Below are positions 37-61,810 of a DNA stretch of 64,000 nt, one piece after another. The stretch is taken from assembly GCF_000003815.2 (NCBI RefSeq), contig NC_049992.1, positions 16,030,658 through 16,094,657 of the forward strand, read 5' to 3'. Under the pieces are notes generated by a model. The model saw only the letters and a list, made by a program, of their open reading frames with translations, did not search any database and was not told the origin of the DNA. Position 1 is the stretch's first letter. Every line of letters begins with the position of its first letter. The stretch is from Branchiostoma floridae (lineage: Eukaryota; Chordata; Leptocardii; Amphioxiformes; Branchiostomatidae). The position numbers and the translations under genes are program-made.

Positions 37-44
37 GAACATAT
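37..44. repeat. Left target-site duplication of the foldback element
   Basis: GAACATAT directly outside the left terminal inverted repeat. It is identical to 8708-8715. The bases on either side of the pair do not match, so the duplication is exactly 8 bp. Confidence 0.85.
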
Positions 45-2580
45 GGCAGATGTTTCGTGTAAGACATCACGAAATCGCCGGCAAGCGCAGCCAGGCTTGC
101 TGGGGTCTGTCGGGGTCAATGCCCGATCGCGCCGTCCATGTGTACGCTACATCATCACGATGTACGCGTCGATAACGTCACGAATTGTCGGCAAGCGCAG
201 CCAGGGATACGGGGGCCTGTCGGGGCCCGTGCCCGATCGCGCCGTCCATGAGTACGCTACATCATCACGATGTACGCGTCGATAACGTCACGAATTGTCG
301 GCAAGCGCAGCCAGGGATACGGGGGCCTGTCGGGGCCCGTGCCCGATCGCGCCGTCCATGAGTACGCTACATCATCACGATGTACGCGTCGATAACGTCA
401 CGACAATGTCGGCAAGCGCAGCCAGGGATGCGGGGCCTATCAAGGTACATGCCCGATCGCGCAGTACATGTGAAAGGCGCATCATCGCGTATAAAATGTT
501 GTGCATGGCCGTTCCTACTGGTGTATTACACTATACATGTGATCTGAAATGCCCTGTAGTATTGTAGCAGGTCTTGCCGCTACAAGGGTATCGGGGCATG
601 CCACTGCTCGTGTGCGGGATGACCTGGGCTTTCAGCCGTATAAGATATTGTGCATGGTTGATCGTTTCGACTGGTGTGACATTATACGGAAGGTCTAAAA
701 TGTCCTGTAGTATTGTAGTAAATCTTGCCGCTGTGAGGCTAGCGGGGTACACCGCTGCTCACGTACGGGGCGACCTGGCCTTTCATGCCGTAAAAGATAT
801 TGAGGTTGACCGTTTCTACTGATGTATTACATTATACGAATGGTCTGTAATGCACTGTAGTAGTGTAGTATTGTAGTAGGTCTTGCCGCTACGAGGGTAG
901 CGGGGCACGCCACTACTGGTGTACGGGACGACCTGGCCGTTCATACCGTAAAAGATATTGAGGTTGACCGTTCCTACTGATGAATTACATTATACGGATG
1001 GTCTGAAATGCCCTGTAGTAGTGTAGTATTGTAGTAAGTCTTTCCGCTACAAGGGTATTTGGGTACACCGCTGCTCACGTACGGGGCGACCTGGCCTTTC
1101 CTGCCGTAAAAGATATTGAGGTTGACCGTTTCTACTGATGTATCACATTATACGAATGGTCTGAAATGCTCTGTAGTAGTGTAGTATTGTAGTAGGTCTT
1201 GCCGCTACGAGGGTAGCGGGGTACACCGCTGCTCACGTACGGGGCGACCTGACCTTTTATGCCGTAAAAGATATTGTGCTTGACCATTTCTACTGGTGTA
1301 TTACATTTTACAGATGGTCTGAAACGTCCTGTAGTATTGTAGTATTTTAGTAGGTTTTGCCACTACAAGGGTATCGGGGCATGCCACTTATTGTGTACGG
1401 GACTACCTGGCCTTTTAGCCGTAAACGATATTGTGGTTGCTGTTTCAACTGGTGTGACATTATACGGAAGGACTAAAATGCCCTGTAGTATTGTAGTATT
1501 GTAGTAAGTCTTACCGCTACAAGGGTATCGGGGTACACCGCTGCTCACGTACGGGGTGACCTGGCCTTTCATGCCGTAAAAGATATTGAGGTTGACCGTT
1601 TCTACTGATATCACGATTACATTATACGAATGGTCAGAAATGCCCTGTAGTAGTGTAGTATTGTAGTAGGTCTTGCCGCTACGAGGGTAGCGGGGCACGC
1701 CACTACTAGTGTACGGGACGACCTGGCCTTTCATGCCGTAAAAGATATTGAGGTTGACCGTTTCTACTGAATCATGATGTATTACATTATACGTATGGTC
1801 TGAAATGCCCTGTAGTAGTGTAGTATTGTAGTAGGTCTTGCCGCTACGAGGGCAGCGGGGCACGCCACTGCTGGTGTACGGGACGACCTGGCCTTTCATG
1901 CCGTGAAAGATATTGAGGTTGACCGTTTCTACTGATGTATTACATTATACGGATGGTCTGAAATGCCCTGTAGTAGTGTAGTATTGTAGTAGGTCTTGCC
2001 GCTACGAGGGTAGCGGGACACGCCACTGCTGGTGTACGGGACGACCTGGCCTTTCATGCCGTAAAAGATATTGAGGTTTACCGTTCCTACTGATGTATTA
2101 CATTATACGAATGGTCTGAAATGCCCTGTAGTAGTGTAGTATTGTAGTAAGTCTTACTGCTACAAGGGTATCGGGGTACACCGCTGCTCACGTACGGGAC
2201 GACCTGGCCTTTCATGCCGTAAAAGATATTGAGGTTGACCGTTTCTACTTAATTTATGATGTATTACATTATACGTATGGTCTGAAATGCCATGTAGTAG
2301 TGTAGTATTGTAGTAGGTCTTGCCGCTACGAGGGTAGCGGGGCACGCCACTGCTGGTGTACGGGACGATCTGGCCTTTCATGCCGTAAAAGATATTGAGG
2401 TTGACCGTTCCTACTGATGTATTACATTATACGGATGGTCTGAAATGCCCTGTAGTAGTGTAGTATCGTAGTAGGTCTTGCCGCTACGAGGGTAGCGGGA
2501 CACGCCACTGCTGGTGTACGGGACGACCTGGCCTTTCATGTATTGTAGTAGGTCTTGCCACAAGGGTGTCGGGGTATGCC
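45..2580 (+). repeat. Left arm of foldback element: outer 110-bp and inner ~158-bp tandem arrays
   Basis: The outer part (about 70-510) holds four GC-rich units with a 110-bp period; the shared motif GTCGGCAAGCGCAGCCAGG recurs near 80, 190, 300 and 410. The inner part (about 515-2580) holds about 13 units with a 154-164-bp period, marked by TAGTAGGTCTTGCCGCTAC and an internal TAGTRTTG microsatellite-like tract. Several unit variants alternate, which suggests higher-order amplification. Short reading frames here only reflect repetition. Confidence 0.85.
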
Positions 2581-5286
2581 ACTCCTCGGAACTTGCTAAA
2601 TGATGAGATGTACATTTTGCTGAACAACAACAGAATGTGTGAACTTCATTTTCATGTATCCTTATCTGCCTCGTTCACGACGTCAGCCAAGATATGCCTC
2701 ATGTAGCTCAACTCAATATTCCTATTCTACTCTAGCAATTTTTGATGATGCTACACACACAAAAATGACCATGAACCTGCCACCGAATGCAAAATTTTAC
2801 CTTGTATCATGATTCAAACCCGAAAAATATCCATAAAGTCTTCCTAACTGTGACGGCTCACATTAAGTGTTGTCAAATCATCATGTGTCTTGCTTTATAG
2901 CAAAGGTAAAACCAGCCATCAAGCTCACTGATTGGAGGTAAGGACCTTTGAAAACGACTGGAATTTAGAGAGATGAAAATTCTGTGTCCATTGCTTCTGT
3001 CAACTGCCTTCGGCACATGATGATGGGCACACACCATTTAAATTATCGTTGCTTAGTCTTCACTTTCTTAGTTATAAAAACAAACGAACCCATGCTAAAA
3101 CTTTTCTTGTCATGTCTTTATCAGAAATATCATTGAACGGAGTGGGTTTATAAAATTCCTTCAGTGATTATGCAAATAGGATTATACTAAAAATCATTAC
3201 GATTCGTCAAACCCTTCCTGAGACATTCCCTTTCAATGTCTGACACACGGTTCCAGCAGCCGCTAGGGTGCCAAACCTAAACCACTTACTCCCGGTCTTT
3301 AAGAGCTCACAAAAATCACGACCATTGCACGTCCAGAAATCGAGATATCAAACCAGGAAGTTCCGCTGTAGAACCAAAACAAACCGCTAGGGGCCCAAAA
3401 TCGAATCGTTTCAAGATCTAATAAAGACCGACCCACGTACCAAATATCAATACAGTCCATCCAGGCATTCTTGAGTAATGCTGGTCTTCTACACATACAC
3501 ACACTCATAAACACACATAACCTTATAGCGTGGGTAGACATAGCTTGAGGGTTTTAATTACATGGCTGTTTATAGTTTTACATACCTATCTCACACTCCA
3601 AGTATGAGCCGATTTGGTCGACTCCATCTTCCGATCGACCTCATTTTTTTCATGCAGTGACTTTTGATTATATACAGCCTTTCAATATTGAGCTAATATT
3701 TTCTGAGCTATATATGACATATATTTCAGATGTCATCTTCAGGGGTAATGTTACTACATGAACACTTCAAAATTGTATCTTCTATGGATGAAAGTGAATT
3801 TCATCTTCATTATCAATAAAATGCGATTGAGGTAAGCGAAAGGGTTTGAATTTTTTCTGTAGATATACATGTATAATTCCCACGAAATGCCTTGTCACAG
3901 AGCACGAAATCGATCGGCGGATGGGTCTTGGATCTCTAAATGACGTTTTGGACAGTAATACGCCCATCGACCGATGTTCGTATGTCTTCAAGCCCCGTTT
4001 AATGTGATCGGGTAGATAAAAATGAAAACATACAATGGGCCGAGAAAACGGTAAGAGGATGATCTCTAATAATAAACATTTTGAAGTAGAATAAACTGGG
4101 GACCGTGCTATACGCGCTACTGCTGTTTGGCTGGTGACAAGTAAAGTTAACTCGTAACTAACCGACTGCTCTGCAATTTTGTGTTCTAAGGTCGACACGT
4201 CAGTTAATTATAAGTCCGCCAAATTCGTTGCGAGATGCTTTGTCAGGGTGTTGTCTCTAGCTATTCGTCCTCTGTCTCAATAGATGATCCATAATGAAGA
4301 ACATCGAGAATCTAAACCAAACAACTTCAAATTCAAATGTTGTGAAAGAATATAGAACCTACTGCAACGGCGTGTCTAGATATCAACAACAGTGCGAAAA
4401 CATATAATGTGTTTTGTATTTTTTTTCTTGTGAAAGCCCGTGGATAGAAATAAGACTGGTTTCCATAACCTACATATAAACTTGGAGCTGCGCATGTACA
4501 TGTGCATTCAGGTAACGGTTTATCCGTCAGACATGTTAAACTTTGCATATTACATGCATTCGTATCCCATCGACAATACTGAAAAGTGTTACTTTTCAAT
4601 AAATAAAACAGAGGATTTCTATCTATGTATGGTACTCTACAGTGATACCAAAGTATCGAGCAAATGTTGAGAACATATGAAGGATTATTCCGACATGGTA
4701 AAAGGTCAGACGTATTTTAAACAGAACGTCAGTGATCCAAGTCAACTGTGAATTGTGTAAATCCAATGTTTTATTACACGCAGGATCCTTGGTCTTAGAT
4801 ATCATTATGGGGACTTAGGTTGCAAATAACAAGGTACTGTACCTATATTGAAACACTCATAGGATGAAAGAACTTTTAATACTCGAACGCAACATGACAT
4901 TCGAAGACTGCTTTCTGCCTTGTGATACAAATTGGAATCATTTTCTAATGATATGGGCAATCGTACGTTCTTGCCAGTTGGATGCTAATTTCAGTCTACA
5001 TGCGAAGACATGGGACAATAACATTTAAAGATTTAAAGTACAACAGAAAAATATGACACTTTCCATTAACACAACGCTACACTTTTCTTGTTCCTCCTTA
5101 ATACGCCATGCATAGAAATATAATTAATTATGGTGCGAATGTTCAACCCCTACGGTAGTCAATGCACAAACAAAACACTGATTTGGGATTATATAATTGA
5201 TGACTAGTCAAAGAGTCATTTCTTTTTACGGGCCCTAACGTAACAAAGTTCATGTCACTGACCTAATAGAATACGTACGTGAACGG
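2581..5286. other. Central non-repetitive segment of the foldback element, no recognised gene
   Basis: About 2.7 kb of AT-rich sequence without tandem repeats. The longest open frame is 138 codons on the minus strand (3782-4198). Its product has no domain I recognise and its composition looks random. I see no transposase motif. About 3340-3541 matches two other copies of a dispersed repeat in this window. The segment may be captured host DNA or the eroded middle of an autonomous element. Confidence 0.55.
3340..3541 (+). repeat. Dispersed repeat D, copy 1 (RTE/SINE-like 3' tail)
   Basis: The copy shares GGGCCCAAAATC, then CACGTACCAAATATCA, CAGTCCATCCAG and TTCTTGAGTAATGCT, and ends in an ACAC-rich simple tail. 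The same ordered motifs occur at 52141-52290 and 61652-61810. Tails of this style are common at the 3' ends of RTE-type LINEs and SINEs (inference). It is nested in the foldback element. Confidence 0.55.
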
Positions 5287-8200
5287 TGTGCCCGCTACCC
5301 AAGGCCTACTACAATACTACAAGACATTTTAGTTCTTCTGTATAATGTCACACCAGTCGAAACGACTAACCACAATATCTTCTACGGCTGAAAAACCAGG
5401 TTGCCCCGTACACGAGAAGTGGCATGCCCCGATACACTTGTAGCGGCAAGACCTACTACAATACTACAGGGCATTTTAGAACATCCGTATAATGTCGGCC
5501 GAGTAGAAACGATCAACCACAACATCTTCTACGGCTGAAAGGCCAGGTCGTCCCGTACACAAGAAGTGGCATGCCCCCATACCCTTGTAGAGGCAAGACA
5601 TACTACAATACTACAGGGCATTTTAGTCCTTCCGTATAATGTCACACCAGTCGAAACAACCAACCACAATATCATCTACGGCTGAAAGCCAAGGTCGTCC
5701 CGTACACGAGAAGTGGCATGCCCCGATACCCTTGTAGCGGCAAGACCTACTACAATACTACACTACTACAGGGCAATTCAGACCATACGTATAATGTAAT
5801 ACATCAGTAGAAACGGTCAACCTCAATATATTTTACGGCATGAAAGGCCAGGTCGCCCCGTACGTGAGTAGCGGTGAACCCCGATACCCTTGTAGCGGTA
5901 AGACTTACTACAATACTACAATACTACAGGGTATTTTAGACCATCCGTATAATGTCACACCAGTCGAAACAATCAACCACAATATCTTCTACGGCTGAAA
6001 GCCCAGGTCGTCCCGTACACGAGAAGTGGCATGCCCCGATACCCTTGTAGCGGCAAGACCTACTACAATACTACAATACTACAGGGCATTTTAGTCCTTC
6101 CGTATAATGTCACACCAGTCGAAACGGCCAACCACAATATCTTTTACGGCTGAAAGGCCAGGTCGTCCCGTAAACAAGCAGTGGCATGCCCCGATACCCT
6201 TGTAGTGGCAAGACCTACTACAATACTACAATACTACAGGGCATTTTAGTCCATCTGTATAATGACACATCAGTCGAAACGGCCAACCACAATATCTTCT
6301 ACGGCTGAAAGGCCAGGTAGTCCCGTACACAAGCAGTGACATGCCCCGATACCCCGGTAGTGGCAAGACCTACTACAATACTACAATACTACAGGACGTT
6401 TCAGACCATTCGCATAATGTAATACACCAGTAGGAACGGTCAACCTCAATATCTTTTACGGCATAAAAGGTCAGGTCGCCCCGTACGTGAGCAGCGGTGT
6501 ACCCCGCTAGCCTTACAGCGGCAAGACCTACTACAATACTACAATACTACAGGACATTTAAGACTATCCGTATAATGTCACACCAGTGGGAACGACCGAC
6601 CACAATATCTTCTACGGCTGAAAGGCCAGGTCGTCCCGCACGTGAGTAGCGGTGTACCCCGATACCCTTGTAGCGGTAAGACTTACTACAATACTACAAT
6701 ACTACAGGGCATTTTAGACCATCCGTATAATGTCAACACCAGTAGGAACGGTCAAGCACAATATCTTCTACGGCTGAAAGCCCAGGTCGTCCCGTACATG
6801 AGAAGTGGCATGCCCCGATACCCTTGTAGCGGCAAGACCTACTACAATACTACAGGCCATTTTAGTCCTTCCGTATAATGTCACACCAGGCGAAACGGCC
6901 AACCACAATATCTTCTACGGCTGAAAGACCAGGTAGTCCCGTACACAAGCAGTGGCATGCCCCGATACCCTTGTAGTGGCAAGAACTACTACAATACTAC
7001 AATACTACAGGACGTTTCAGACCATTCGTATAATGTAATACACCAGTAGGAACGGTCAAGCACAATATCTTTTACGGCATAAAAGGTCAGGTCGCCCCGT
7101 ACGTGAGAAGCGGTGTACCCCGCTAGCCTTACAGTGGCAAGACCTACTACAATACTACAATACTACAGGACATTTAAGACCATCCGTATAATGTCACACC
7201 AGTGGGAACGACCGACAACAATATTTTCTACGGCTGAAAGGCCAGGTCGTCCCGCACACGAGAAGTGGCATACCCCGATACCCTCGTAGCGGCAAGACCT
7301 ACTACACTACTACAGGGCATTTCTGACCATTCGTTTAATGTAATACATCAGTAGAAACGGTCAACCTCAATATCTTTTACGGCTGAAAGCCCAGGTCGTC
7401 CCGTACACGAGAAGTGGCATGCCCCGATACCCTTGTAGCGGCAAGACGTACTACGTATACGATACTACAATACTACAGGGCATTTTAGTCCTTCCTTATG
7501 ATGTCACACCAGTCGAAACGGCCAACCACAATATCTTTTACGGCTGAAAGGCCAGATCGTCCCGTACACAAGCAGTGGCATGCCCCGATACCCTTGTAGC
7601 GGTAAGACTTACTACAATACTGCACTACTGCAGGGCATTTTAGTCCTTCCTAATGATGTCACACCAGTCGAAACGGCCAACCACAATATCTTTTACGGCT
7701 GAAAGGCCAGATCGTCCCGTACACAAGCAGTGGCATGCTCCGATACCCTTGTAGTGTCAAGACCTACTACAATACTGCACTACTGCAGGGCATTTCAGAC
7801 CATACGTATAATGTAATACATCAGGAGGAACGGTCAACCTCAATATCTTTTACGGCATGAAAGGCCAGGTCGCCCCGTACGTGAGCAGCGGTGTGCCCCG
7901 CTAGCCTCACAGCGGCAAGATTTACTACAATACTACAGAAAATTTTGGACCATCCGTATAATGTCACACCAGTCGAAACGATCAACCACAATATCTTCTA
8001 CGGCGGAAAGCCCAGGTCATCCCGGACACGAGCAGTGGCATGCCCCGATACCCTTGTAGCGGCAAGACCTGCTACAATACTACAGGGCATTTTAGACCAT
8101 ATGTATAGTGTAATACACCAGTAGGAACGGCCATGCATAACATCTTATACGCGATGATGCGCCTGTCACATGTACTGCGCGATCGGGCATGCACCTTGAT

Positions 8201-8707
8201 AGGCCCCGCATACCTGGCTGCGCTTGCCGACAATTTCGTGACGTTATTGACGCGCATTTCGTGATGATGCAGCGTACACATAGACGGCGCGATCGGGCAC
8301 GGGCCCCGACAGGCCCCCGTATCCCTGGCTGCGCTTGCCGACAATATCATGACGTTATCGACGCGCATTTCGTGATGATGTAGCGTACACATGGACGGCG
8401 CGATCGGGCACGGGCCCCGACAGGCCCCCGTATCCCTGGCTGCGCTTGCCGACAATATCATGACGTTATCGACGAGCATTTAGTGATGATGTAGCGTACA
8501 CATGGACGGCGCGATCGGGCACGGGCCCCGACAGGCCCCCTTATCCCTGGCTGCGCTTGCCGATAATTTCTTGACGTTATTGACGCGTACATCGTGATGA
8601 TGTAGCGTACACATGGACGGCGCGATCGGGCATGGACCCCGACAGACCCCCGCAAGCCTGGCTGCGCTTGCCGGCGATTTCGTGATGTCTTACATGAAAC
8701 ATCTGCC
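5287..8707 (-). repeat. Right arm of foldback element (inverted copy of the left arm)
   Basis: This arm carries the same two repeat classes in reverse orientation. About 18 units of the ~158-bp repeat run from 5287 to about 8150, followed by five GC-rich ~110-bp units to the end (about 8160-8707). It is roughly 0.9 kb longer than the left arm, so unit number has changed independently in the two arms. A transcript or single strand through the whole element could fold into a stem of over 2 kb. Confidence 0.85.
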
Positions 8708-8715
8708 GAACATAT
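8708..8715. repeat. Right target-site duplication of the foldback element
   Basis: GAACATAT directly outside the right terminal inverted repeat, identical to 37-44. The perfect match suggests a fairly recent insertion. Confidence 0.85.
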
Positions 8716-9144
8716 TGTACAATTATAACATAAACAATACAATAAGACGTGTAGCATAAATATCATAATGGATAAATATTGCAGATTCGAGTGCAATGTC
8801 TAAAAGACAAGTTAAAATAGGGTTAAAACTATACATATTAAAAGACTAATCATGCTAAAACTGGTTGACTTGACCTATATACAACTTTAGCTAAAAACAG
8901 ATTGTCCTGACTCCTGGTGGAGTTTATGCGCAGAGTCTACAGTTCGTTCGATGATTTGATCATTGCCGGTATAGCGCTGGTTAGGTACAGATGTGTCATC
9001 AGCAGTAACACAAATTAAAGTCATCAGTAGCGCGTATGTTCAAGTGGCAATCCGCCAAAATGATCCCAAGCATGGAGTTAAATCCTATGATACATGTGAT
9101 CGCGAAAGTACCTCTTACTAATGAATCAATGTGATAGAGACGTT

Positions 9145-9690
9145 CTATCACATTTTTTCACCAACAGACACAATTTTTTCTTACTAGTGAATTAATGTGA
9201 TAGAGGGGTGCCATCACATTTTCACTAAAAGAAACATATTTTTCCTTTAAAAAACCGTCTAAATTTGCGCCTACTAGAGGAAAAATGTGATAGCACCCTC
9301 TATCACATTAATTCACTAGTATGTAGACAATTATTGAATTAGCAGTTCAAAGTTATCAAAACTTTTCCAACTATCGTGCACTGTCCAAAAATACTATTCA
9401 GGGCTAGATGAATGTAATAGTCAAATCTATCGCAACTGCCGTTTTTTTTTTCACAAAATGACACAATCTTTTTCCTAAAAAAAAGACTGGTCTAAATTCG
9501 TATTTACCAGAGAAAAAATGTGATCCCAACGCTTCGATCACATTAATTCACTACTATATAGACAATTGTTGAATTAACAGTTATCACTGTGGCAACATTT
9601 CCAACTATCACGTTTTCTGTCCTTAAATACTATTCAAATAAATGTGATACATAATCAGGTCTATCGCGACTGCCGTGCTCCAAATCCGCA
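9145..9690. repeat. Palindromic and tandemly duplicated MITE-like repeat
   Basis: A strong hairpin is formed by 9181-9222 and 9286-9326, built on ACTAGTGAATTAATGTGATA and its complement. A second copy of about 230 bp follows as a diverged direct duplication (roughly 9245-9455 and 9465-9680), ending in CTATCGCRACTGCCGT each time. The motif ATGTGATAG recurs at least six times. No coding potential was seen. Confidence 0.6.
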
Positions 9691-19170: not shown

Positions 19171-21571
19171 GTATTCCCCTGGTGACCTGGCATTATGGAG
19201 CTAGCATAGCCTAGCTGGGGTATACGTAGTACCATCTGAATATCATCCTTGTCTTGGCAAATGCCAGTGACACATTGATAGACCACAGAGTAAGCTTCGA
19301 CACGGCGAAAGAAAATACCAGTTAGTAAGATATTCTCCAATCTCCACCATTTTCACATTGGAAAAGCAAAGTTTCTAGTGTTGTTTTGACATTACTTTCA
19401 CCTATAAAGAGGACTTAAAGATCTAGGTTCACCCAAACAATTTCCCGTTAGATTTACGACCCTTCACCTGCAGTGTTCTGAAATCGACCATAAAATTGAG
19501 TCCAGTCTAGGCAGTCCGTGGCATGAATAAAAGTACGGAAATATGTGATGTGCCAGGCAAAGAGACCTTCAGCCTTTGTACAGACCGCATACAAATAAGC
19601 TTAAGTGCTCGCTTATGATTTGTATCTCCATTATAGCCGCTCTGGCAGAACAAGTTGAACCCTATCCACTTTTGTCTCCATCCCCGCTGTAGGCAATAAA
19701 ATATAATTTCCGGACTTCCCTTATAATAAGTTTAACGCTAGAATTACACCGCACAGCCGCCACTTCCAGCTATCAAAGGAGCAGAACCGTAAACCACAAA
19801 GGCACAATTTGCACAAAGAAACGGTCCAGTGGCTCTTTTAATAATACGCCTCCGCTGTAAAAGAAAAGCTGATAGATGGGCCTATATCTTAAAGTGGTGC
19901 AATCGTATCCTATTACAGCGTTTATCTTCGAGCTCGTAACATTATCTTTGTCATTTCAGAATAAAAAAGACCAAAGCTATGCCTTATACTTCTACTCATA
20001 TTATAGCATTTAAGGAACTACCACTGCAATATGCCTATTGCGAGCACTACATATAGATTGCTCCACGGCAAAGTATAATTCACTCAAACCGTCCTCTGTT
20101 TCAGGAGATAACAAACGTTTTAACAGATAGCGACTCGAATACTCGAGAGGAATATTGGCCATGACAAATATACGAGACTAGTTACGCCAGCAATTGATAA
20201 GGTTGTTTCAAGTTTCAGACTCATAGTTGTAATCTGTCTACCAGATCCCCATGTCTCCAGCGAGAGACATGGAACAATAAATCTTCTGGCCTCTTGAAAG
20301 GTCTTAAACCTGACATCTTGTCTCCACAAAATTGTTTTAACTAAATTTATGAAGGGAACTAGAACACGTCATTGGAAACTTTTACTTAGAAAGATGGTAA
20401 GAAGTAAGAAACATCTTCTGCGATGCAAGACATTAAGCAGTCCCGAATCATGTAATCTTCGTGAACCCATTGCACTTGGAGGACAAAGTTGCCCTTGTCA
20501 GCATGTCAGAACCGTATAGAGCTAACCCAGGGCACAGTTGCCGAGGAATAAGTCATTTGTTCTGCCGTTCCCTGAACGCTACTAATGGAGGTTCAATATG
20601 CCTATTGTTCCCACTGGGAACGTAACGTGAGCTCGACTCCAGAGCTTGAAAGGCTCATGTAGACCTGTCTTCTAACAAGGAATGTTAGATAAAGCATGGA
20701 GTTGTCCTCGTCCCTTTGTCGCTGTTCAGAACGATAACGCTTCCCAATGACAAACTGCAGATTACTTTGTGAATCGGGACTGACGGCAGGGATTCACCAA
20801 AGCTCATCAAAGTCACGACAGGCAGATAAATTTTCAGACATTCCCCTTACATAATTTATTAAACGTATAATTAATTAATCACAGCGGGTGATGAATAGAG
20901 TGCAGTGAAGTTTGAACGTGTGGGCAGGGCTTGTTTGATTGTACTGTGGTGTAAAGCTGATGTGGGGTCAGCAGAAAAACCTACGGACGTGTTAGCAATC
21001 ACAATGATAGTGGCGCGACTATCAATTATAAATGAAAGCGCTGTGAAGAGCTCTCGTTCAAAATGAAAAGTCTATTCATGTTACCTCAGGCATAAAACTT
21101 GAAATGTTAAAGAGCTTTTAGTCAAGGCTTTGCCAGGATAAACTCATGTTTTCCATCACACAAAAAACACTTAGTTCACAATTAAGTCGATCTGTCAGAA
21201 AATGGGTATTTCAAAAAAATAGTTTCAGACACATGGACACGGACGTTTATTGTGCAGCTTGATGCAAATAAGCAACATTCAGAAGTATTTTAAACAATTT
21301 GTATTAACAATTAGTATCAACAGTATTCACCTGTAGTATCTACATAGCATATGCTACAATATATTGCAACACTTTCAAATATTGCAATCGACTTTTGTAG
21401 CATACAGAATAATTCATGCCAATTTCATCTGAATGCAGGCAAAGCATCAGAGTTATCCTGACAGGGCTACTTTGCCACGAAATTACCAGCCATCACGCTA
21501 GATTTTGAAAGCGAATTGAATTATGTAATGAAAAATAACCATTCATTTTAGGCAAGAACAGCACATTCCAC

Positions 21572-21760
21572 TCGACGGCCATCACGATGCGAGCTAGATG
21601 TGATGGTTTCATACTTGTAATCCGATGTAAAATGTAAAAGTATGACTGAAGAGACAATGAAATGAATACACAAAACGCAAAATCAGTTTCTCATCTATGA
21701 AATTCGTTGAGTGTTCCGTGTCCAATGTTAGGTGGTATGGGGTATAAGTGGGGTATAAGT
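21572..21760 (+). mobile_element. MITE family A, copy 4 (diverged)
   Basis: Begins CATTCCACTCGACGGCCATC, with AGTATGACTGAAGAGACAAT, then CTATGAAATTCGTTGAGTG and GGTATGGGGTATAAGTGG. The order matches copies 1-3. Confidence 0.4.
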
Positions 21761-24700
21761 GAGGTTCATTCCATTTCAAAAGGCATGACTTTCAGAAGAT
21801 ATAGCTCAACTGTTCGTAGTTAAACCTTGCTCTTACACATGTGTCTTTACCGACCATTTTTCAAAGTAGAGCGTTTGTCCCGTTCTTAAACTGTCTAACG
21901 GGACTACTTTGTTGTAAACGTAGCAGCGCAAGCAGTATTTTCTTCGAACTCCTCTCTTTGCTCCAGCTTTCGTACACTTCTTACATGTTTTTAGTCCCTC
22001 AACTTGTAGATTCCCCGGGTTCTCACGTATATAAAGCCCATTTCAATTTGGCGTCTCAAAGGGAAGACGTCGACAATCTTTACGCACGTACAAACTTTGA
22101 GGGGACAAATTTAACTTATCTGGGTAAATATTACGTATAGAATTTCTATATTTATCCTACTTCCTGACTTCCTATTCGTGACAGCTGATTTTGCACCAGA
22201 TACAAAAGAAATGCCCATAATCTTGTGGTACAATAGAGAAGTATTTGCTATCACTAGATCTCGGGACTGAAAGCAGTAGATATGTTTGTCGTTCATTAAT
22301 CTTGCTCCAAAGGCTATGTTTCTAATATATCACCACCATACATCTGTATACACTCTTCCCTTTGGTTTTTGTCCAGGCTTAAGGTTCTCTTTTATGGCTT
22401 TGTTGCCCTTCTCTCCACAGGGTTTACAGCCATGAATAGGTTTCTATATGCATACAAGTTTTTACTTGAGTGACTTTATCGAGCCAGTTTCATGTGGATG
22501 TTGTAAATCAAATTCATGCACAGATATAATAAACATTGGTACAACATACACAAAGGTTGCGAGATATGAAACTTTAATTACATCGGCCTTAGCAGTAAAC
22601 TTTATGGTGACTATGGTATCTTTATGCAGTCTGTCATCTCAACTTTTGAATCTTACTGAGTCTGCAATATTTTTTCAACCTTTATTTATCCTTGAGTACA
22701 AAAACCATTGGCCTAAGTCGTTTTTAAGGGTTCAAGGTTTCTACAATTCAATGTAAAATTGAAGAAACATTACCATTGAGACAGCAAGTACCCACCATCA
22801 TGTCAAATTTATGAATTCAATTGAAAATGGAAAGAAAATCATACCTTTCAGAAAGTCCCGGGGGAGCAAATGATTGCTTGTGAAGTACAAGGACAATGCA
22901 TGGAGTGGTTAAGTACATACAAACTGTATTTGTAATAGGCCAATTACAGCAGTCTGGTCATTGCCTCCATAACGTCATCTGCTCTCTTTGAGTATAGACT
23001 GCTAATAGGACCTGCAGTACATGCATTTTGACGTCTAGAGAGAACCTTTCACAAAGCAGAAGTGCATGCTTGTCATAACAGATGTTGAACTAATTGTGCA
23101 GATCCAAAATGACATCTACTAGTACACATTTTCAAGTACGCTAAGTGGATAGATAGTTCCGTGACACGTACGTATGATAATAAAGTGTACTACATGTAAC
23201 GTTACGTGCATAATTGCAGCACAAATAAGTACAAACTCCTATGATAAAATCTACTCCACCAACCCCAGATTCTATAAAATGAACACATATTTAAACACAA
23301 GACAAGAAATGAATTTAAAAATTCCAAACAATAAAGAGATACTGAAAACAAAACTCCTTGAACATGGAACAACTTTAACAGTAAAGAAACAAATATGACA
23401 GCACTTTCTTACAGTTTTAATGAAATTTTTCCTTTTATGTACTTCCAACTCAGCTATCAAAACTTCTATTAAGATACATGTATGCTCCATTTCCTCAAAA
23501 TCAGCGACTCTCAGCTTCAAACTAAGCAACTACACGAGTTAGATTTATGCACATTCTGTTGGAAGTAATATATAGAAATTGCATCAAAGTGGATCCTGAA
23601 AACACAAAGTGTGCCTGACCACCGGTTTGGTCACCCAACGGCTGAAGGCCAGGATCTGTTCAAGTGTTCACCCGATGGTTATGGCTTCTTTTAAAAATGG
23701 TGGCTTATGTAGCCAGATTTGCTTAAAGCATCTCCACAGCCAGATGGCTTTTTATATTAGACACAACTCATTATTGCACAATATGCAGTATTGTATGCAT
23801 TATGTCTTATTCTGAACTATATGTATATCATCCGGTATCTAGCTTACTGCACTTTGGCACATCACACTCAGTCATATAATGCATTGTAAACCTCTGTAAA
23901 GTATGGAATGGCAAATAGATTCCAATGAAGTCTTTAAACATATATGATCACAGCCCACTATCTAAGCTTCAGCCTCAAGCTTTTATTACAAGAAACAGGA
24001 GCAAATGACAGGACTCCAACCACGGGAAACGTAAGGCCTGGCAAGCATTAAAGGCCTTACCACTTTACTACAAATTGCTCCTGATATTTAAGAGGGGCAG
24101 GGAAAGAGAGACCTCCTTCTCTTGGCTAATGAGTGGCTGTCCAGTTCTTATCAAAGCAGTAATATCACACAGCAGGGCATCCCAGATTTATGGCCTTGCA
24201 CATCACTTCTGACAGAGACCGTAGCAGGTGGGAAGTGCACTAACTACACATATTGATTTACCAATAATTATATAGTCCCTGAGTAAAGGCTATGTCATCA
24301 GTTCAGGGAACTCATAGTTGATGCAGTGCCTGAACTATTCAGTGCTTTTATCTAACACATTGTTTAACTAGTATGATTTTATGATACTGTCCAATTCTTT
24401 TTATCTGACAGTGTACATCGTTTCTGACAGAGACCGTAGCAGGTGGGAAGTGCACTAACTACACATATTGATTTACCAATAATTATATAGTCCCTGAGTA
24501 AAGGCTAAGTCATCAGTTCAGGGAACTCATAGTTATAGATGTTGGCCAGATGCAGTGCCTGAATTATACAGTGCTTTTATCTAACACATATGAATCTTTC
24601 TTAACCCTTATGATCTTTATGATGATACTGTCCAATTCTTTTTTATCTGAAAGTGTACCTGCCTTAAGCTTGTTCCTTTATAAATTAACTGCCTTTTTCA

Positions 24701-31400: not shown

Positions 31401-34400
31401 TAAAGAACATTTGTACGAGGGGCGTGCAATTAGTAATGGTCCTGACCCATTTCCCATAGCAGGAGATTAATGAAACTTGGCACAGTTATTAGTCTTTCTC
31501 TTCATAGGAGTCACCCAGAGTTATGCATTTCTCCCATCGTTTGATGCAGCTCTGGACACCGATTTTGTAGGACACCCCAGGTTGGTCCTCCAACTGATGC
31601 CTCATCAATGGCACAAGAGGGACGACCAGGTCTGGGAGCTGTTTCCACAGACTTCCAGCCACGTTTGAATTCAGGATGCCAGCGTTTTACAAGGTCATAT
31701 GATGGGGCATCATCACCATAAGTTTCATTTATTTCATCAAAAGTCTTCTTTGGTGTGCGTCCTTTCAAATACAAAAACCGGATCACTGCGCGACACTCAA
31801 CTGGTTCCATTTCACACCTGGTCCATTTCGCACCTGACTAAGTTCAAACACCAGTAAATCAGAAACCACAATTAGTTCAGAGCTGTCTTTTGCAACATAA
31901 CCCATAGAGATATGAATTATTACACATACAAAATTTCATCTAGATCAGACAACTGGAAGTGGGTCAGGACCATTACTTATTGCACGCCCCTCGTAGCTAT
32001 AGACGTGCAAAAGTTAGGTCTGTGTCATAGAACCAGTCACTGCCACGCCGCACGTCTGCAAAACTGGTGCATTTTGCTGAAGCGCAGTTATGACAACTAT
32101 ATAGACACAGACACAGGTACTAGCAAGAAATGATTCTAGCTGCAGTGCATGATAGAACCAGTTTTGCCCTGAGGAATGTCACAGATGGTCACCTAAACAT
32201 TGGTCTTGAATAAAACACTTTGTTGTGTGGAAAGAAAATTCAATTTGTTATTCATCTCTTGATACATCACTGGGTTCTTTGACCCCTTATTCAGTTTTAT
32301 TACTTTGGTAAGTCACAAGACCAAGGAATGTATTTCAATGTAGTGTGAAATAAATCTACAAATTTGAAGAAAGTTATTATTATTATTTCTTTATTTCAGG
32401 CTCTCACTGGCCCATATGACAGAGGGACATACATGAAAAACAAAAAATATATACAACATTTCAAGACAAACTGACAATACTATGGCTATGTGTAGAGGCG
32501 GCGCCAGAGATTGGTGAAAAATGAGTTCTTGTAAAAAGAGTCGGACCTAAGTACGGACTGTATAATGGTATTAGTAGAATTGAAAAGCCTATGTACAAAG
32601 GAGTGGCACTGTTTACGCCATCTGGCGTCAAAGGTATCGGTATGATTGCACACGAACATTTCACTTGCGCTGCAAGATCTAGGGAAACTCATAATGATAC
32701 GAAAACAATTATTGTAGGCAATTCGACATTTCGACAGAACACATGAGCGAAAAGAATTCCACAACTGCCCACCAAATAGTTGAGAACAATGGGATGTGAA
32801 CAGTTGTTTCTTAATAGCAGGTGAACAAAGACAAAATTTTCGAATTATAGTATTAGCACGACAGTACAGACCCCTTAGCTGGGCAAGAATACAGTCATCA
32901 TCACTCAGTCTGTCATTAATAGCAATTCCAAGATATATAAATGATGTCACAAATCTCAAACACTCTCCATACAATTTGATCGACGGGAGCGGATGTAGAA
33001 GTGGCAAACTAGCGCTCGGGAAGTACATGCAGCAATGTCTTGTTTACATTGAATAACAAATCATTTTCTAAACCAAAGTCCTCACAAGTACTTACAAGTT
33101 TTTGCAGAGACTTAAGGCTAGGACATAACAAACACATGTCGTCAGCATAAAAAAGATGGTTCACAAGAAAACCTCCTATATAGCAACCTACTTTAGTACT
33201 ACTGAGTCTCGAACTTAAATCATCTATATATGCATTGAATAGTAGCGGGGATAGCAGACTCCCTTGCCTTACACCATTTGATACATAAAAGCAGGGAGAC
33301 AAAACATTGTTCCATCTAATACACATTGTTTGGTTCTGGTACCAGTAAACCAGAAACCTCACCAAATACACCGGGACCTTTCTGTCAAGTAGTTTTTTAA
33401 ATAGGGTCCAATGGTTTACCCTATCAAAAGCCTTGGAGGCGTCCAAAAAACAAGCAAAAACTGGAGAGCCGAGACCCCGGTAGTACTCAATTGTCTGTTT
33501 TAAAGTAAATACACACATGTCAAGACCATGTCCTCGTTTGAAACCGAACTGATGAGCAGTGGTTTGAAGATATGGCTCTAGCCTGTTCAATAAAACAGCC
33601 TCCAGAACTTTGGATAATGCTGATGCAATTGCTATTGGTCTATAGTTATCACTATCAGAAATATTACCAGTTTTGTTTTTAACAACCGGAATGATGGTAG
33701 TATCTAACATACTTTTCGGAATGAAGTTATGGACAAGCCCGGCTGAAAACAATAGTGATATGCATATGCTAAGCTTAGGCCCCGCATATTTAAGGTGTTC
33801 ATTACTGATTCCGTCAGACCCTACCGCTTTTCCATTGGGTAAGTTTCGAATGATATCATATACTTCCACAGGAGAGATTTGCATCCCCGAATCAAATTCA
33901 AAAGGACAACCTGTCGACAAATCAGACATAACAGCAGGTCTATGTACCTCACTATTGACAGAGTTCAGCAGTTTTTCAAAATGACTCCTCCACATGTCTG
34001 CGATCTGCTCAGTCCCAGAGCAACCATCTATAGTATTAGGTATTACAGAATGAGAGGATTTAGTACTACGGACCTTTGTCCAGAATTCTCTAGTATGGCC
34101 GGCATTGAAACTTCTTGCAGTCGAGTCAGCTCTTGCCCTGTTTTCCTCCTGTCTACACTGTCTTAGGGCATACTTAAACTTTGCCCTGGCTTGATTCATT
34201 AAGGAAAAAATTGGACCAGATCGAGGGCGGCCACTTTCCCTCCAAAGAATGTAGGCCTCACGTGCAGCCGTATGCAAATCCTTAACAACCTCATTCCATC
34301 CGGGGACAGGTGTGAAGGAATTGCAACACGTTCTTTGAGTTATAGTGGAATTCGCAGAATCTTTTAGAATGGCAATTAATTGGCAGGTAAACAGGTTGAG

Positions 34401-37400
34401 GGCATTAGTATGCGCTTGATCCTGACAATTCGGATCCTTACAAATCATTGCGTCTAGTGGAATTTCCACGTTTGACAGAAAACTGTCCACAGATAAACGA
34501 TACATGTCGACTTGGCCTGGCATCGCCCTGGCCCAGTCAGTGATTTTGCGAGGAATCTCGGAGTATGCAGCCTTAGCTATGGCTGGGAAATTTGCATCTA
34601 AAGAGATACAGAGTGGAAAGTGATCAGAGGAGACATAATCATGCAACACCTGAATATTGTTGATGTTTTGGTGAGCCGTGTCACTTGCCAGACAGTGATC
34701 GATCCATGATGTGGAAGCATGGACATCACTGAGGTAAGTGTAAGAATCGGCCGGAAGAAGTTCCCTGTCTGAGCAGTGTAATCCAGTTTCCTCGCAAAAC
34801 GTCTGTAACAATACACCAAATCTACTTGTAGGTGAGGCATTAAAATCGCCCAAGATTACCGTAGCATACGAATTATAATCCTCCAAGAGTGCCTCAAGTT
34901 TACCCAGCTTCTCAAGAAATGAGTCAGTATTTGCTGGCATATCACAAGGCATATATACACATACACAGAGTAATTGACATCCATTCAAATCTATTCTAAC
35001 AGCAATGAGACTATCATCATCAATGTCAACAGGAGATATGACAGAAGATAGGGTCTTTCTCCACATGATCCCCACTCCCCCATACGGGCGTCCTTGTAGC
35101 ACCCCTGCTTCAAGATTTACTGGGGATTTCCCGGAGGCCATAAACTCAGGACTAATACTGCTTAGAAAAGGGATATCATCAGGCAGAAGCCAGTGTTCTT
35201 GCAACATAATAATGTCATTTGATTCACATAGACTTTTGATTGTTCCAACTGAGTTCTTGACAGAACGGCAGTTATATGATGCAATCCGCAGTTTCTGTTT
35301 CAAGTCCATGGTTAAGAAGTGGAAGAGCGTCGCCTACTGTGAAAGCGGCGCACTAGGATCCCACATGGCCAGAAAGATGGGGACAGGACTTCCGACACAG
35401 CATTGCAGTCAACAGAGACGCGGAACGAAGAATACCCATCGTATTTTGTGGTCAGTTTAGAACAGGACACTGTGAATTTCTGCGACAAGTTATCAGTCAA
35501 GTACCTTTCAACATCCTGAGTCAGTGTGTCCGGTTCAAGGCGCGTCACAAAGATCTCCGCTGGTCTTGACTTAACCGCAGACAGACTGGACGACACCGCC
35601 GTACCCACCACTGCCCTAGACCTCTGCTTCTTTCTCTGCACCAGGCGGAAGCCCTCAGAGTCAAGGTCACTGTGGCCACCAGCTGAGGTGGACTGCGGTC
35701 GGGGAACAGCCCTAGAGCCACTCGAGTAGCCACGACGTCGGGATGCCTGCGATGACTTTGTGGCAAGCGCCCTCTCCACCTGCCGACCAGGGTCGCCCGC
35801 GTGCAGGGACTTAGGGATAGTCTCCGACGGGCAGGTGTCAGACACGGCATTGGCGTAGGATTCCTTCGGCCTGGCGAGAGTCGACGTTGCCGGCGGAGCA
35901 GAACTCGACGCTGCCGGCGGAGCAGAACACGACGCTGCCGGCGGAGCAGAACACGACGCTGCCGGCGGAGCACAGCTCAGCCTGTTTTTCAATTCCCAGA
36001 TCTCTTTCCTGAGGGCCACAAGCTCAGTCTGGACTCTAACCGAATCTATGGAGCAGTCCCTAATCAGTTTCATCTCCTGCCTCACGATCTGAAGCTCTTG
36101 CATGCAAACCGAGATGTCTACATGTTCCAGATTCACAGCGGGGAGGTGGAGAGTTGCGGACACGAAAGTAGGTAACGACGGAGGAGCAGTAGAATGCAAA
36201 ACTCGCTGAATATCCTCCATATTGGCGGTAGACTTGTCTGCTCCCTTTCGCTTTATGTAGCGTTCGTCTGGCTTACATGTATCAAATACAAGTCTCTTAG
36301 CCGTCTCTATTTCCTCTTCCATGTACGTCTCGGTACACAACTTCGTAATGATGTCGAACGGAAGAGTGTCCATCTTGTTAACAGTAAAACATAACAGATC
36401 GTTGATGATAACATCTTTACATACCGCTTCGGATCCAGACCCACTAGGGGGGAAACGCTTGTCTGAACAGCACTGGCAGAGAACAAGATCCCCCTGACAG
36501 TAAAGTAAATTATGAAAAAATGAAAGAATAAAAAAATAATGATTAAACTCTAAAAAAAATTTTAATTCATCTTAGAATCGTACATTTGAATTTTTAAAAC
36601 CTTTTTTGACCATTGTGTTGTAAAAAACCTCACCACAGAAAGCGCTTGGCTCCAGGGTCCATACCAGTGGATGGCTCGTCCATCAGAACAACTTGAGTGT
36701 TTCCCAGCATGCTCATCGCAAAACTCAGCTAGAAGAAAAAACACTAATATTCAGAAAAGTGTTACAGAAAACTTCTCTGGCATTCTACAACTAAAATGGT
36801 AAGTTCTTGCAGATAATATAATGGCACTGTCTGAAGGAAGAAGAAACACACTTTTTAACTTTCTCTGCTGGGTACCATTTTGCAAACAACTTTGTATTGG
36901 TGAGAAGCTAAAACCGCAGAGAAAAGAATTATTATAATATAGTACATTGTACATGTACATCAAGCAACTTAAAATATAGGAATAGCAACAAAAGGTTTTC
37001 CTTACACACTAAGTTAAAATTGCATATGAGATAAACGTCTTTTACAATGATACAATATGAATTGAGTCAAATATGGGAAAGTAGAAAAGTTTAACTACTA
37101 AAGCCTACCTTTCTTTTGGTGCCACCAGACAAAGCTGAACTTCTCTTCTGTGCATGTTCCTCTATCTCCATAGACTCAATAAAGCTGTTTTGGGGATAAA
37201 CAACACCTTAGTATACTACAAAGCTCTCAAATTGCATTGTGTGCAATCAAAGACATTCATAATTCTTTATTCTGTATATACTGACAGTCTGCACTCTTTG
37301 TTCTCACATTATCACGACATGTTTCACCAAACACATTCAATGCTGTAAACAATTTATATCACATGGAAGAGTACATTCTGGGGCCCACTATGCATACATC

Positions 37401-40400: not shown

Positions 40401-42830
40401 ATTGATGATGCACAGAGAAAAGAGGGATCTCCTAACAAGAATTGCTTTTAGCTTTTAGATGATTAATGAAAACAGGAGAATCTGTGCCTCACAAAATGGA
40501 TGGTTTGGACAACATAACAAACTTTCAGCAGCTTCAAGAAGCCCCATCAACCAGCAACTACCTCTGATCCAATTAGAAATTAGATCTAATTCATGTACCA
40601 CTTTGTTGCACTTTGCTTTATCTAATTTGAGCACTGGCATCTTGGGAGTTGCTTGAGTTAATGTTCACATTCCTCAATAGCTGTAGTCATTCTTTAAAAT
40701 ATCATGTTACTGTATAATGCTGTGACACACTGTTAGATACGGAACCATTGCCAGTGTTCTAGCCAGCCTGATTTTTTTTCCGTCCCCTGGGTTTAACTTT
40801 TGAATGGAGAATCCTGTCGAAGGCGCAAAGATCCTTGGGGGGGTTTGACGTCATGCTCCCCCCAGAAAATTGTGAAATATAGACCCTCTGAAACGCTTTC
40901 CTTTATTTTGAGGGGCACATTTTGCTGGCAAACTCAACTTGGTTCAAGGTTCAGTTAATATCTTTATATGCTGATTTTTGTCCATCACAGGCAGAATGGG
41001 CAAAATTTTTGTCCATCCCCGCAGCAGCAAGAATCCGTCAAAAACGGAAGGATGAACCCTGGTTAGAAACCTGAACCAACCTTAAAGAAAATGTATAGCC
41101 TCTTATTTACAAAATTGCAGGAACTTGAACCCACAGGCAACTAACCAGAGAGTTCATAAAACATAGAGAGGCAAGTGATCCATAAAATGGGCAAAGGCTT
41201 TCCTGAGGAAATAACAGGATACAAGATTATACTGTTTAAAGGCCATGGCTGAATATCATGCTGATCCCTAGGATTAAATACATTTTGAAAAGGGCAGAAC
41301 GGATTTTACAGATATGGATGTCCTACTGCAGAGCTTAAGTCATCATGTGAAAATGCTGCTTTGGAAGCCTTTATCAGATTAATACTTTTTCATCATAACT
41401 GTGTGCTTAATCTAATTGTTATGTATCATATTTTGTGAAATGTTTTCCATTCCCAACTTTTTCCATAGAATGGCTCTTCATTTATAATTATAGAAGGTCA
41501 AGGGTAAGAAATATAATAAAGGTAGTTCCATAGGCCTTTTGAGGCTGTAGGGGCAGTGGGTTGTTATCCAATGTGTCTGAGGGCACAATATTGGAAGGTT
41601 GAGCCCATCCATCTCTCTTGACTGCCTCTTAACTCCCCAGGTGAAGCTAAGTGCTCATTTTTACATCTGAGTGAAGATCCAGAGGTTTTCCCAAGGACAC
41701 AATGTCTAGCCAGAAGGCAAACCCATGACCTTGATTTCCTGTCTACTAGCCTACCCACTCAGCCATTTCACCAACCTGGCAAAAATCACTTTCAATGTTG
41801 GCGGTTGAATGACTAAGAAAGAGAATGCTCTCCACAGCAATTATTTCGACCTAGTTTTTAAGCCATCTATCAAATTTGATTTAATGGCGGAGGGTTGCTT
41901 TTCATTCTTGCCCTTTTCAATCTTCCCCTGGTAGTTTTCTAATCTGTAAATCCTACAACACCTGCGCAGCCTGTAAAACAATGGCCTTACTTATAGAGCC
42001 CTGACACTCCCATTTATCAAACATTGTTCAAGCCTGACATGATGCTGGTATTAATCAATATCTGTCTACTTTACTGACTAACTGACTGCTCCACTTATTC
42101 ATGTCTACCTCTGGTGGAATTTCTCTGCTTTCTGATGAGGCCTTGTCTGTACGTTACTTTGAAGAACATCACACACATTGAATATGATCGGTCTCTTTTT
42201 TTACCATCCTTGTTGTCTTTGTTCAAAGTAACTATTACATTCTTTCTTGCCTTATCCAAGAAGAGAAAGATTCATCTTCAGCATTCATTTTTGTTCTCCT
42301 TTTGTTGTCCACTCACTCACTCACTCTCACTCACTGATCAATCACTCACTCACTCACTCACTCACTTACTCACTCATGCACTCCTTGATTCATTCAATAA
42401 TCCACTCACTCAGTCTTTCACTCACTCACTCACTCACTCAGTCAGTCAAGCACTCTCACTCACTTACTCATTCATTCAATCATCCACTCATTCAGTCTTT
42501 CACTCACTCACTCACTCACTCACTCACTCACTCACTCAACCAATCACCCACCCACCCACTCACCCACCCACTCACCCATCCATCTGCTCATCCATCCCCT
42601 TCCCTTACCCTGCCCTCTGATGGAGCCATATCAGCTGTAATGACGTTCATGGCTGTAGTTTTCCCTGCACCATTGGGCCCCAGCAGGCCAAACACCTCCC
42701 CAGACTCCACCCCCAGGGTCAGCTGACTCACGGCAGTCTTGTACTGTTCTTCCTTTGTCTTCTTAAACAACTTGAAGCCACCATCTTTGGGGAACGTCTT
42801 GGTCAGGTTCTGGAGTGTCACAACAGGTGG
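25471..42830 (-). CDS. ABCA5: ABCA5-like: exons 27-35, nucleotide-binding domain 2 and C-terminus
   Basis: Exons: 42609-42830, 38363-38535, 37109-37184, 36634-36728, 29583-29702, 28824-28931, 27115-27254, 25861-25916 and 25471-25602. Walker A is GPNGAGKTT (exon 27) and the Q-loop region is [20 protein letters not shown] (exon 28). The signature reads LSGGTKRK (exon 29), with Thr in place of the usual Gln. Walker B plus D-loop is [13 protein letters not shown] (exon 30) and the H-loop is [10 protein letters not shown] (exon 31). Exon 33 has [15 protein letters not shown]. Exons 34-35 have [20 protein letters not shown] and a polar tail ending ENTELV. The introns are large: the exon 27-28 intron (4.1 kb) and the exon 30-31 intron (6.9 kb, with LINE and mariner) hold most of the transposons. 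Confidence 0.92.
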
Positions 42831-61651: not shown

Positions 61652-61810
61652 AGGGGGCCCAAAATTGACCTTGACCTTCGTCTTCCCAACATCTACCCAC
61701 ATACCAAATATCATCTTAATCCATCCAGAGCTTCTTGAGTTATGCTCACTACAAAGATCCGGACACACAGACAGATACACAGACAGACAGACACACACAC
61801 AGACACACCC
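61652..61810 (+). repeat. Dispersed repeat D, copy 3, with (CAGA)n tail
   Basis: AACCAGGGGGCCCAAAATTG, then CCCACATACCAAATATCATC, AATCCATCCAGAGCTTCTTG, AGTTATGCT and ACACACAGACAGATACACAG microsatellite. This is the best preserved of the three. Confidence 0.65.

Follow-up and report, generated by a model that had tools for sequence, protein, structure and literature searches.

Is the inverted structure near the left end of this window an intact mobile element, and if so, what moves it? Foldback elements such as FB and TU carry tandem repeats inside their long inverted arms, and such elements are often known solely as defective copies that lack an enzyme. The window analyzed here is a 64,000-nucleotide stretch of amphioxus (Branchiostoma floridae) DNA, C14:16030658-16094657, and the genome searched comprised 513.4 Mb in 431 contigs. 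The original prediction of an intact foldback with exact ends and a perfect 8-bp target-site duplication was confirmed (Table 1). The element at 45-8707 has GAACATAT on both sides, and its terminal 56 bp are identical between left and right at 55 positions, the lone mismatch being G/A at position 13.

Table 1. Features of the foldback element in the window (window positions; strand given where assigned).
Feature	Positions	Strand	Evidence or remark
Left target-site duplication GAACATAT	37..44		Single copy in joined flanks matching paralogous sites
Whole foldback element, 8,663 bp	45..8707		No gene recognised
Left terminus GGCAGATGTTTCGTGTAAGACA	45..66	+	Non-tandem; 20/22 positions invariant across the 30 best aligned ends
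Left outer array	67..470	+	110 bp x 3.7 units
Left linker between outer and inner arrays	471..554	+	Non-repeated
Left inner array	555..2587	+	13 units of 134-174 bp
Array-middle junction	about 2587	+	Deletion junction common to the window copy, C12, C5b and C13b
Middle domain	2588..5299		No recognisable gene; corresponds to 43,383 to about 46,200 of the 50-kb copy
Right inner array	5300..8084	-	About 18 units
Right linker	8085..8166	-	Non-repeated
Right outer array	8167..8685	-	111 bp x 4.7 units
Right terminus (complement of GGCAGATGTTTCATGTAAGACA)	8686..8707	-	End alignment
Right target-site duplication GAACATAT	8708..8715		Exact match to left

Each arm starts at its outer side with a short stretch free of repeats. 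An outer array built from ~110-bp units follows, then an 82-84-bp linker and, innermost, an array whose units measure ~150 bp. Long, largely tandem-repeat inverted arms thus surround a middle domain, as in the foldback class. The arms had been predicted to be purely tandem repeats, which holds for most of their length but not for the ~20 terminal bp or for the two linkers. Tandem-repeat measurement gave 12.5 units of 158 bp for the left inner array (555-2540) and 18 units of 155 bp for the right one (5307-8084), and the middle of the element (about 2588-5299) was not tandem-repetitive. The outermost inner-array units pair as mirror images (L1/R2 and L2/R3, both 95%), whereas the inward parts of the arms diverge by multi-unit duplications (e.g., R7-R9 versus R11-R13: 92, 97 and 93%). 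Given these two patterns, we infer that the arms had a common origin and then grew separately, largely via duplication of several units at once.

Several other features were recorded in the window. A diverged dispersed repeat (67-69%) occurs at 3314-3464, in the middle domain, and again at 52071-52228 and 61654-61781. A non-LTR retrotransposon on the minus strand (32486-36373) contains a frame of 766 codons encoding both an endonuclease and a reverse transcriptase domain, adjoined by frames at 35312-36373 and 32486-33028. Two matches to the mir-2060 microRNA family, a name that appears in work on Branchiostoma belcheri and is in keeping with an amphioxus source, lie in opposite orientation and scored just above the curated threshold (54790-54874, minus; 55458-55546, plus). 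The frames at 42114-42726 and 54194-54745 encode simple protein repeats and are probably translated tandem DNA repeats.

The flanks of the element (1-36; 8716 onward) are part of a dispersed repeat, of which the genome contains at least 26 further near-full matches, seven of them at 98%. To search for empty sites, the two flanks were joined with one GAACATAT (205 nt) and matched against the whole genome. Among the 40 scored rows (63 candidates), 26 covered 200 or more of the 205 bases in a single match; 7 of these were at 98%, 7 at 92-96%, and the others at 75-87% with length differences implying small gaps. The best rows are equal in length on both sides and so contain the duplicated stretch just once. 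At the locus of the window copy itself the match breaks into query 1-86 and 79-205, with an overlap of exactly the 8 duplicated bases. A site with a single GAACATAT and no element, as the original prediction had anticipated, does therefore exist; the evidence takes the form of a match table rather than letter alignments, the sites are paralogous rather than orthologous, and they concern the window copy only. At the level of sequence matches, these results show that the window copy inserted into a dispersed repeat, other copies of which display the empty target. With both a target-site duplication and an empty site, the window copy has the mobility expected of the foldback class. The tandem arrays, and the assembly gaps within several copies, might instead suggest a satellite or an assembly artefact, but the exact 8-bp duplications at unrelated sites and the paralogous empty sites make this highly improbable, and the joined-flank matches refute it in practice.

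The prediction also called for further copies in the genome. A search with the 32-bp end, allowing up to 3 mismatches, gave 88 occurrences (44 per strand) against 0 for the reversed-pattern control, so the end pattern is not due to chance. Among these 88 ends there are 26 pairs of inverted neighbours less than 60 kb apart, spanning 300 bp to 50,661 bp and including the window copy; the two ends are accordingly found together in 25 other places, 13 of which were read. The 30 best aligned ends are identical at 38 of their first 40 positions. A second subfamily has the ends GGCAGATGTTCC. Pattern scans of viral and prokaryote collections returned 0 matches.

In the 14 of 26 pairs that were read, outer and inner arrays are present on both arms without exception, the 50-kb copy included, and parts of the middle domain recur in nine other fetched copies (87-97%) as well as in the 50-kb copy. 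The duplication agrees at 8/8 positions in seven pairs (the window copy, C15, C13a, C5a, C13b, C7a and C7b) and at 7/8 in three (C235, C7c and the 50-kb copy), and is poorer in four (C12, 6/8; C9, 5/8; C5b, a 6-bp match offset by two bases; C234, none). C5a has a second right end within its right arm, directly followed by another inner and outer array, and its duplication TACAAAGA agrees with the outer right end. The interior of C13a is mostly assembly gap (9,762 N). In the middle domain of C13b, an insertion of ~2.9 kb (concatenated 6276-9227) has ~120-bp direct repeats near its ends.

By size, the copies form a series from the 50-kb copy through C235 (20.5 kb), C15 and C234 (near 15 kb, partly owing to later insertions) and the ~8.7-kb derivatives, which have a single deletion junction in common, to a 300-bp end pair. 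The long middle insertions of C15 and C234 were considered as a transposase source and rejected, as their translations, judged by eye, indicated two different reverse-transcriptase elements.

The longest copy (C12:17473452-17524112; 50,661 bp, with 2,469 N) has ends and arms as in the window copy. Its flanks are CAGAGGTT and CAGAGGTG, and agreement at 7 or more of 8 positions has a chance probability of 3.8e-4 at equal base frequencies. The window copy, C12, C5b and C13b pass from inner array to middle domain at one identical base, at which C7a, C7b and the 50-kb copy run on into other sequence; C9 starts further in, so that the junction is outside its span. Relative to the 50-kb copy, the deletion common to these four copies removes about 40 kb. 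Its presence at four sites that differ in their flanks indicates that the deleted form itself moved. Two other copies have separate deletions of about 35 kb in the coordinates of the 50-kb copy, i.e., 9,175 to 43,873 in C15, with AATTA microhomology, and 9,016 to 44,177 in C234, with CTC microhomology. C235 retains parts from both sides of the long interior. We consider it very probable that internal deletion of a large amphioxus foldback DNA transposon gave rise to the window copy, a non-autonomous and apparently gene-less derivative.

Alternatively, the 50-kb unit could be a short foldback enlarged by captured host DNA, or a composite in which a segment lies between foldbacks, as recorded for the Drosophila Ising composites (PMC6431247). 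The stretch from 9.2 to 39.3 kb, which includes the large open reading frame (ORF) described below, had no counterpart in the other fetched loci at E 1e-10, except for 46 and 96 bp of its borders in C235, as such an origin would allow. However, the unit has two arms, one per end, and not four, and the Ising type, with two complete foldbacks bracketing a segment, was rejected for this reason. Moreover, the left interior (to 9.2 kb) and the right interior (from 39.3 kb) recur elsewhere, joined by different deletion junctions, and the exons of an ATPase-like gene cross the 39.3-kb boundary and keep the same order on C17. We regard a composite or host-DNA origin as unlikely and retain the large foldback transposon as the source of the shorter copies.

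The copies differ in apparent age. Substitution distances are 0.6-2.4% among the 50-kb copy, C235, C15, C7c, C7a, C7b and C5a, and 0.7-1.5% among C12, C9, C13b and C5b. The window copy differs by 3.2-3.7% from nine relatives and by 5.3% from C7a, and C234 by 2.8-4.1% from most copies and by 7.6% from C7a. Judged against the allelic differences given for sequenced amphioxus (3.2-4.2%; PMC12500494), the two low-divergence groups look recent, and the window copy looks less so, being among the older ones. The recent activity originally proposed for this locus thus applies better to the two young groups; for the window copy the case is weak, and a perfect 8-bp duplication outlasts much divergence. 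Dating the window copy by the identity of its inverted ends was rejected, since end identity in DNA transposons is no clock.

The original prediction assigned no superfamily to the mobilizing enzyme, for which there is now a candidate. Between the same ends, the 50-kb copy carries an intact 952-codon ORF on the minus strand (21013-23868). By eye, its product has N-terminal Cys/His pairs followed by a DDE-like core (SIDHTFK, FLDQCC, LDLFHA, RNEALHR), with putative DDE residues, likewise picked by eye, at D227, D299 and E428 (P0001). An OTU-like stretch (PF02338, E 0.0017 on a fragment) falls under the Pfam cut-off, and there is a C-terminal CXC-like stretch (E 0.46). The ORF begins with a signal-peptide-like stretch, which is odd for a transposase. 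Searches of the core against Pfam gave no transposase family and only unrelated sub-threshold matches (the best being SPL, E 0.0096, and cyanate lyase, E 0.08), and none was found in NCBIfam or PHROGs. By sequence the ORF had no meaningful match in the PDB, and no relatives in viral contigs were confirmed. A single-sequence AlphaFold2 model had a mean pLDDT of 36.5 and was unusable.

A split ATPase-like gene with P-loop exons (AAA_22, E 0.032, under the cut-off) lies at 37.3-40.9 kb of the 50-kb copy, on the strand opposite the ORF. The ORF has one long stop-free relative in the genome (C17:16459354-16461789, 61%), inside a 3,889-codon open frame; the remaining matches (39 in all) are short pieces, mainly on C6. 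Relatives of the ATPase exons occur on C17 (16442836-16446244, exon order kept), on C6 and in the foldback copy C235, where the matched stretch (89%) contains stops. On C17 the relatives of the two genes lie together within about 19-20 kb, in convergent orientation as opposed to divergent in the 50-kb copy. As the two genes accompany each other at both loci, with about 60% identity between the loci, they look like one mobile module as far as these comparisons go, but the changed orientation and the lack of this family's ends on C17 speak against it. On C6, at about 14.9-28.1 Mb, many short ORF and ATPase pieces are found and 4 of the genome's 27 Mutator matches fall at 26.3-27.3 Mb, a region with the look of a transposon graveyard.

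Three candidate end pairs for a nested transposon around the ORF were rejected as artefacts, though an old nested element could still be present. At 4 bp there was a single candidate, a poly-T run, and at 8 bp likewise a single one, with none in five shuffles for either; at 7 bp a single candidate compared with controls of 1, 1, 0, 0 and 0. One pair of inverted dispersed repeats contains or adjoins both the 7- and the 8-bp candidate, and the latter looks palindromic.

Whether the 952-codon ORF encodes the transposase of the foldback family is, in our judgment, evenly balanced, and it is put forward as a candidate and not as proof. A known superfamily with duplications of about 8 bp (hAT, Mutator, Zisupton/KDZ, Merlin or P) may instead move the family in trans, with the ORF and the ATPase-like gene as cargo or as parts of another element, a reading we rate as quite possible though short of an even chance. 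Several superfamilies are compatible with the 8-bp duplication, and the ORF relatives on C17, C6, C165, C10 and C245 lie outside ends of the window-element family, with no such end on C17 at all in the 88-end genome scan. On the other hand, the ATPase gene is present in two copies that have the ends of this family, and the few frames scanned gave no match to a Pfam transposase.

Among these superfamilies, Mutator is the one to which most foldbacks are thought to belong (PMC4079207), and the 8-bp duplication observed here is within the 8-11 bp range of Mutator-like elements (MULEs; PMC6446971). The genome yielded 27 MULE transposase domain matches (PF10551) above the Pfam cut-off, while PMC6446971 reports no evidence of MULE transposases in the Florida lancelet. 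All 27, however, lie outside the 26 pairs and more than 100 kb from every one of the 88 ends (123 kb at the closest), and the ORF has no PF10551 match, so Mutator was rejected as the mover on present evidence. The 8-bp duplication also fits hAT and KDZ; the hAT transposase domain (PF05699) had no match in the frames scanned, and the ORF had no Pfam match to a KDZ domain, searched by domain and at E up to 10.

Going by their descriptions, FB, Tetris and Galileo of Drosophila and TU of sea urchin resemble the window family in having long inverted arms with internal tandem repeats. Tetris also shares a non-coding middle domain with the window copy; it has ~220-bp tandem units and complete copies with 8-9 bp duplications, and reportedly no autonomous copy was found (PMC4079207). 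In the amphioxus family, by contrast, one copy of 50 kb has an intact large ORF together with a linked ATPase-like gene. The Tm1 Mutator/Foldback elements of root-knot nematodes likewise have composite inverted repeats with variable motif numbers, and coding and MITE-like forms within one family (PMC3169594). Tm1, however, has 9-bp duplications, ~14-bp motifs and a Phantom-like Mutator transposase (PMC3169594), in contrast to the 8-bp duplications, the ~110- and ~150-bp units and the lack of a Mutator match in scanned frames of the amphioxus family. Zisupton and Dileera (KDZ) share the 8-bp duplication (PMC12730594), but the ORF lacks a Pfam KDZ match, and tandem-repeat arms are not described for KDZ elements in the accessible text of that source. 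Teratorn (41-182 kb) and Polintons resemble the 50-kb copy in having tens of kilobases between inverted ends (PMC6431247), but none of the seven frames scanned in the 50-kb copy matched a herpesvirus, polymerase or capsid gene. Structurally, then, the window element is a foldback, and what is unusual is the long gene-bearing form with its unmatched candidate enzyme. No description of an amphioxus foldback family was found among titles and abstract openings in the open-access literature; Repbase may catalogue it.

Regarding how such a system might work, the transposase would bind the terminus and probably the repeated units, cut at GGCAG and insert with an 8-bp stagger, possibly helped by the linked ATPase-like gene if the 952-codon ORF is the enzyme. 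The numerous arm units may serve as binding sites, as is reported for the Galileo THAP domain (PMC3688188). The window copy would have moved by cut-and-paste with the enzyme supplied in trans. Long copies would decay to short ones via microhomology deletions, as in incomplete gap repair, and the arms would lengthen and shorten by multi-unit duplication.

Tentatively, the 50.7-kb copy could be an autonomous giant foldback of a new cut-and-paste superfamily, in which a fusion of a DDE-like transposase, an OTU-type protease and a CXC domain forms a two-gene machine with the linked ATPase and binds arms that combine two kinds of tandem repeat, and the short foldbacks are its deletion derivatives. 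Should the ORF prove to encode the transposase, its core would fall outside every family recognisable with the library searches performed here. If the fuller reading is true, foldback arms would here be a property of a complete, gene-bearing element and not a sign of decay. A series from 50 kb to short copies within one chordate genome makes it possible to test directly how foldbacks originate, what the repeat arms do and how large a cut-and-paste element can be.
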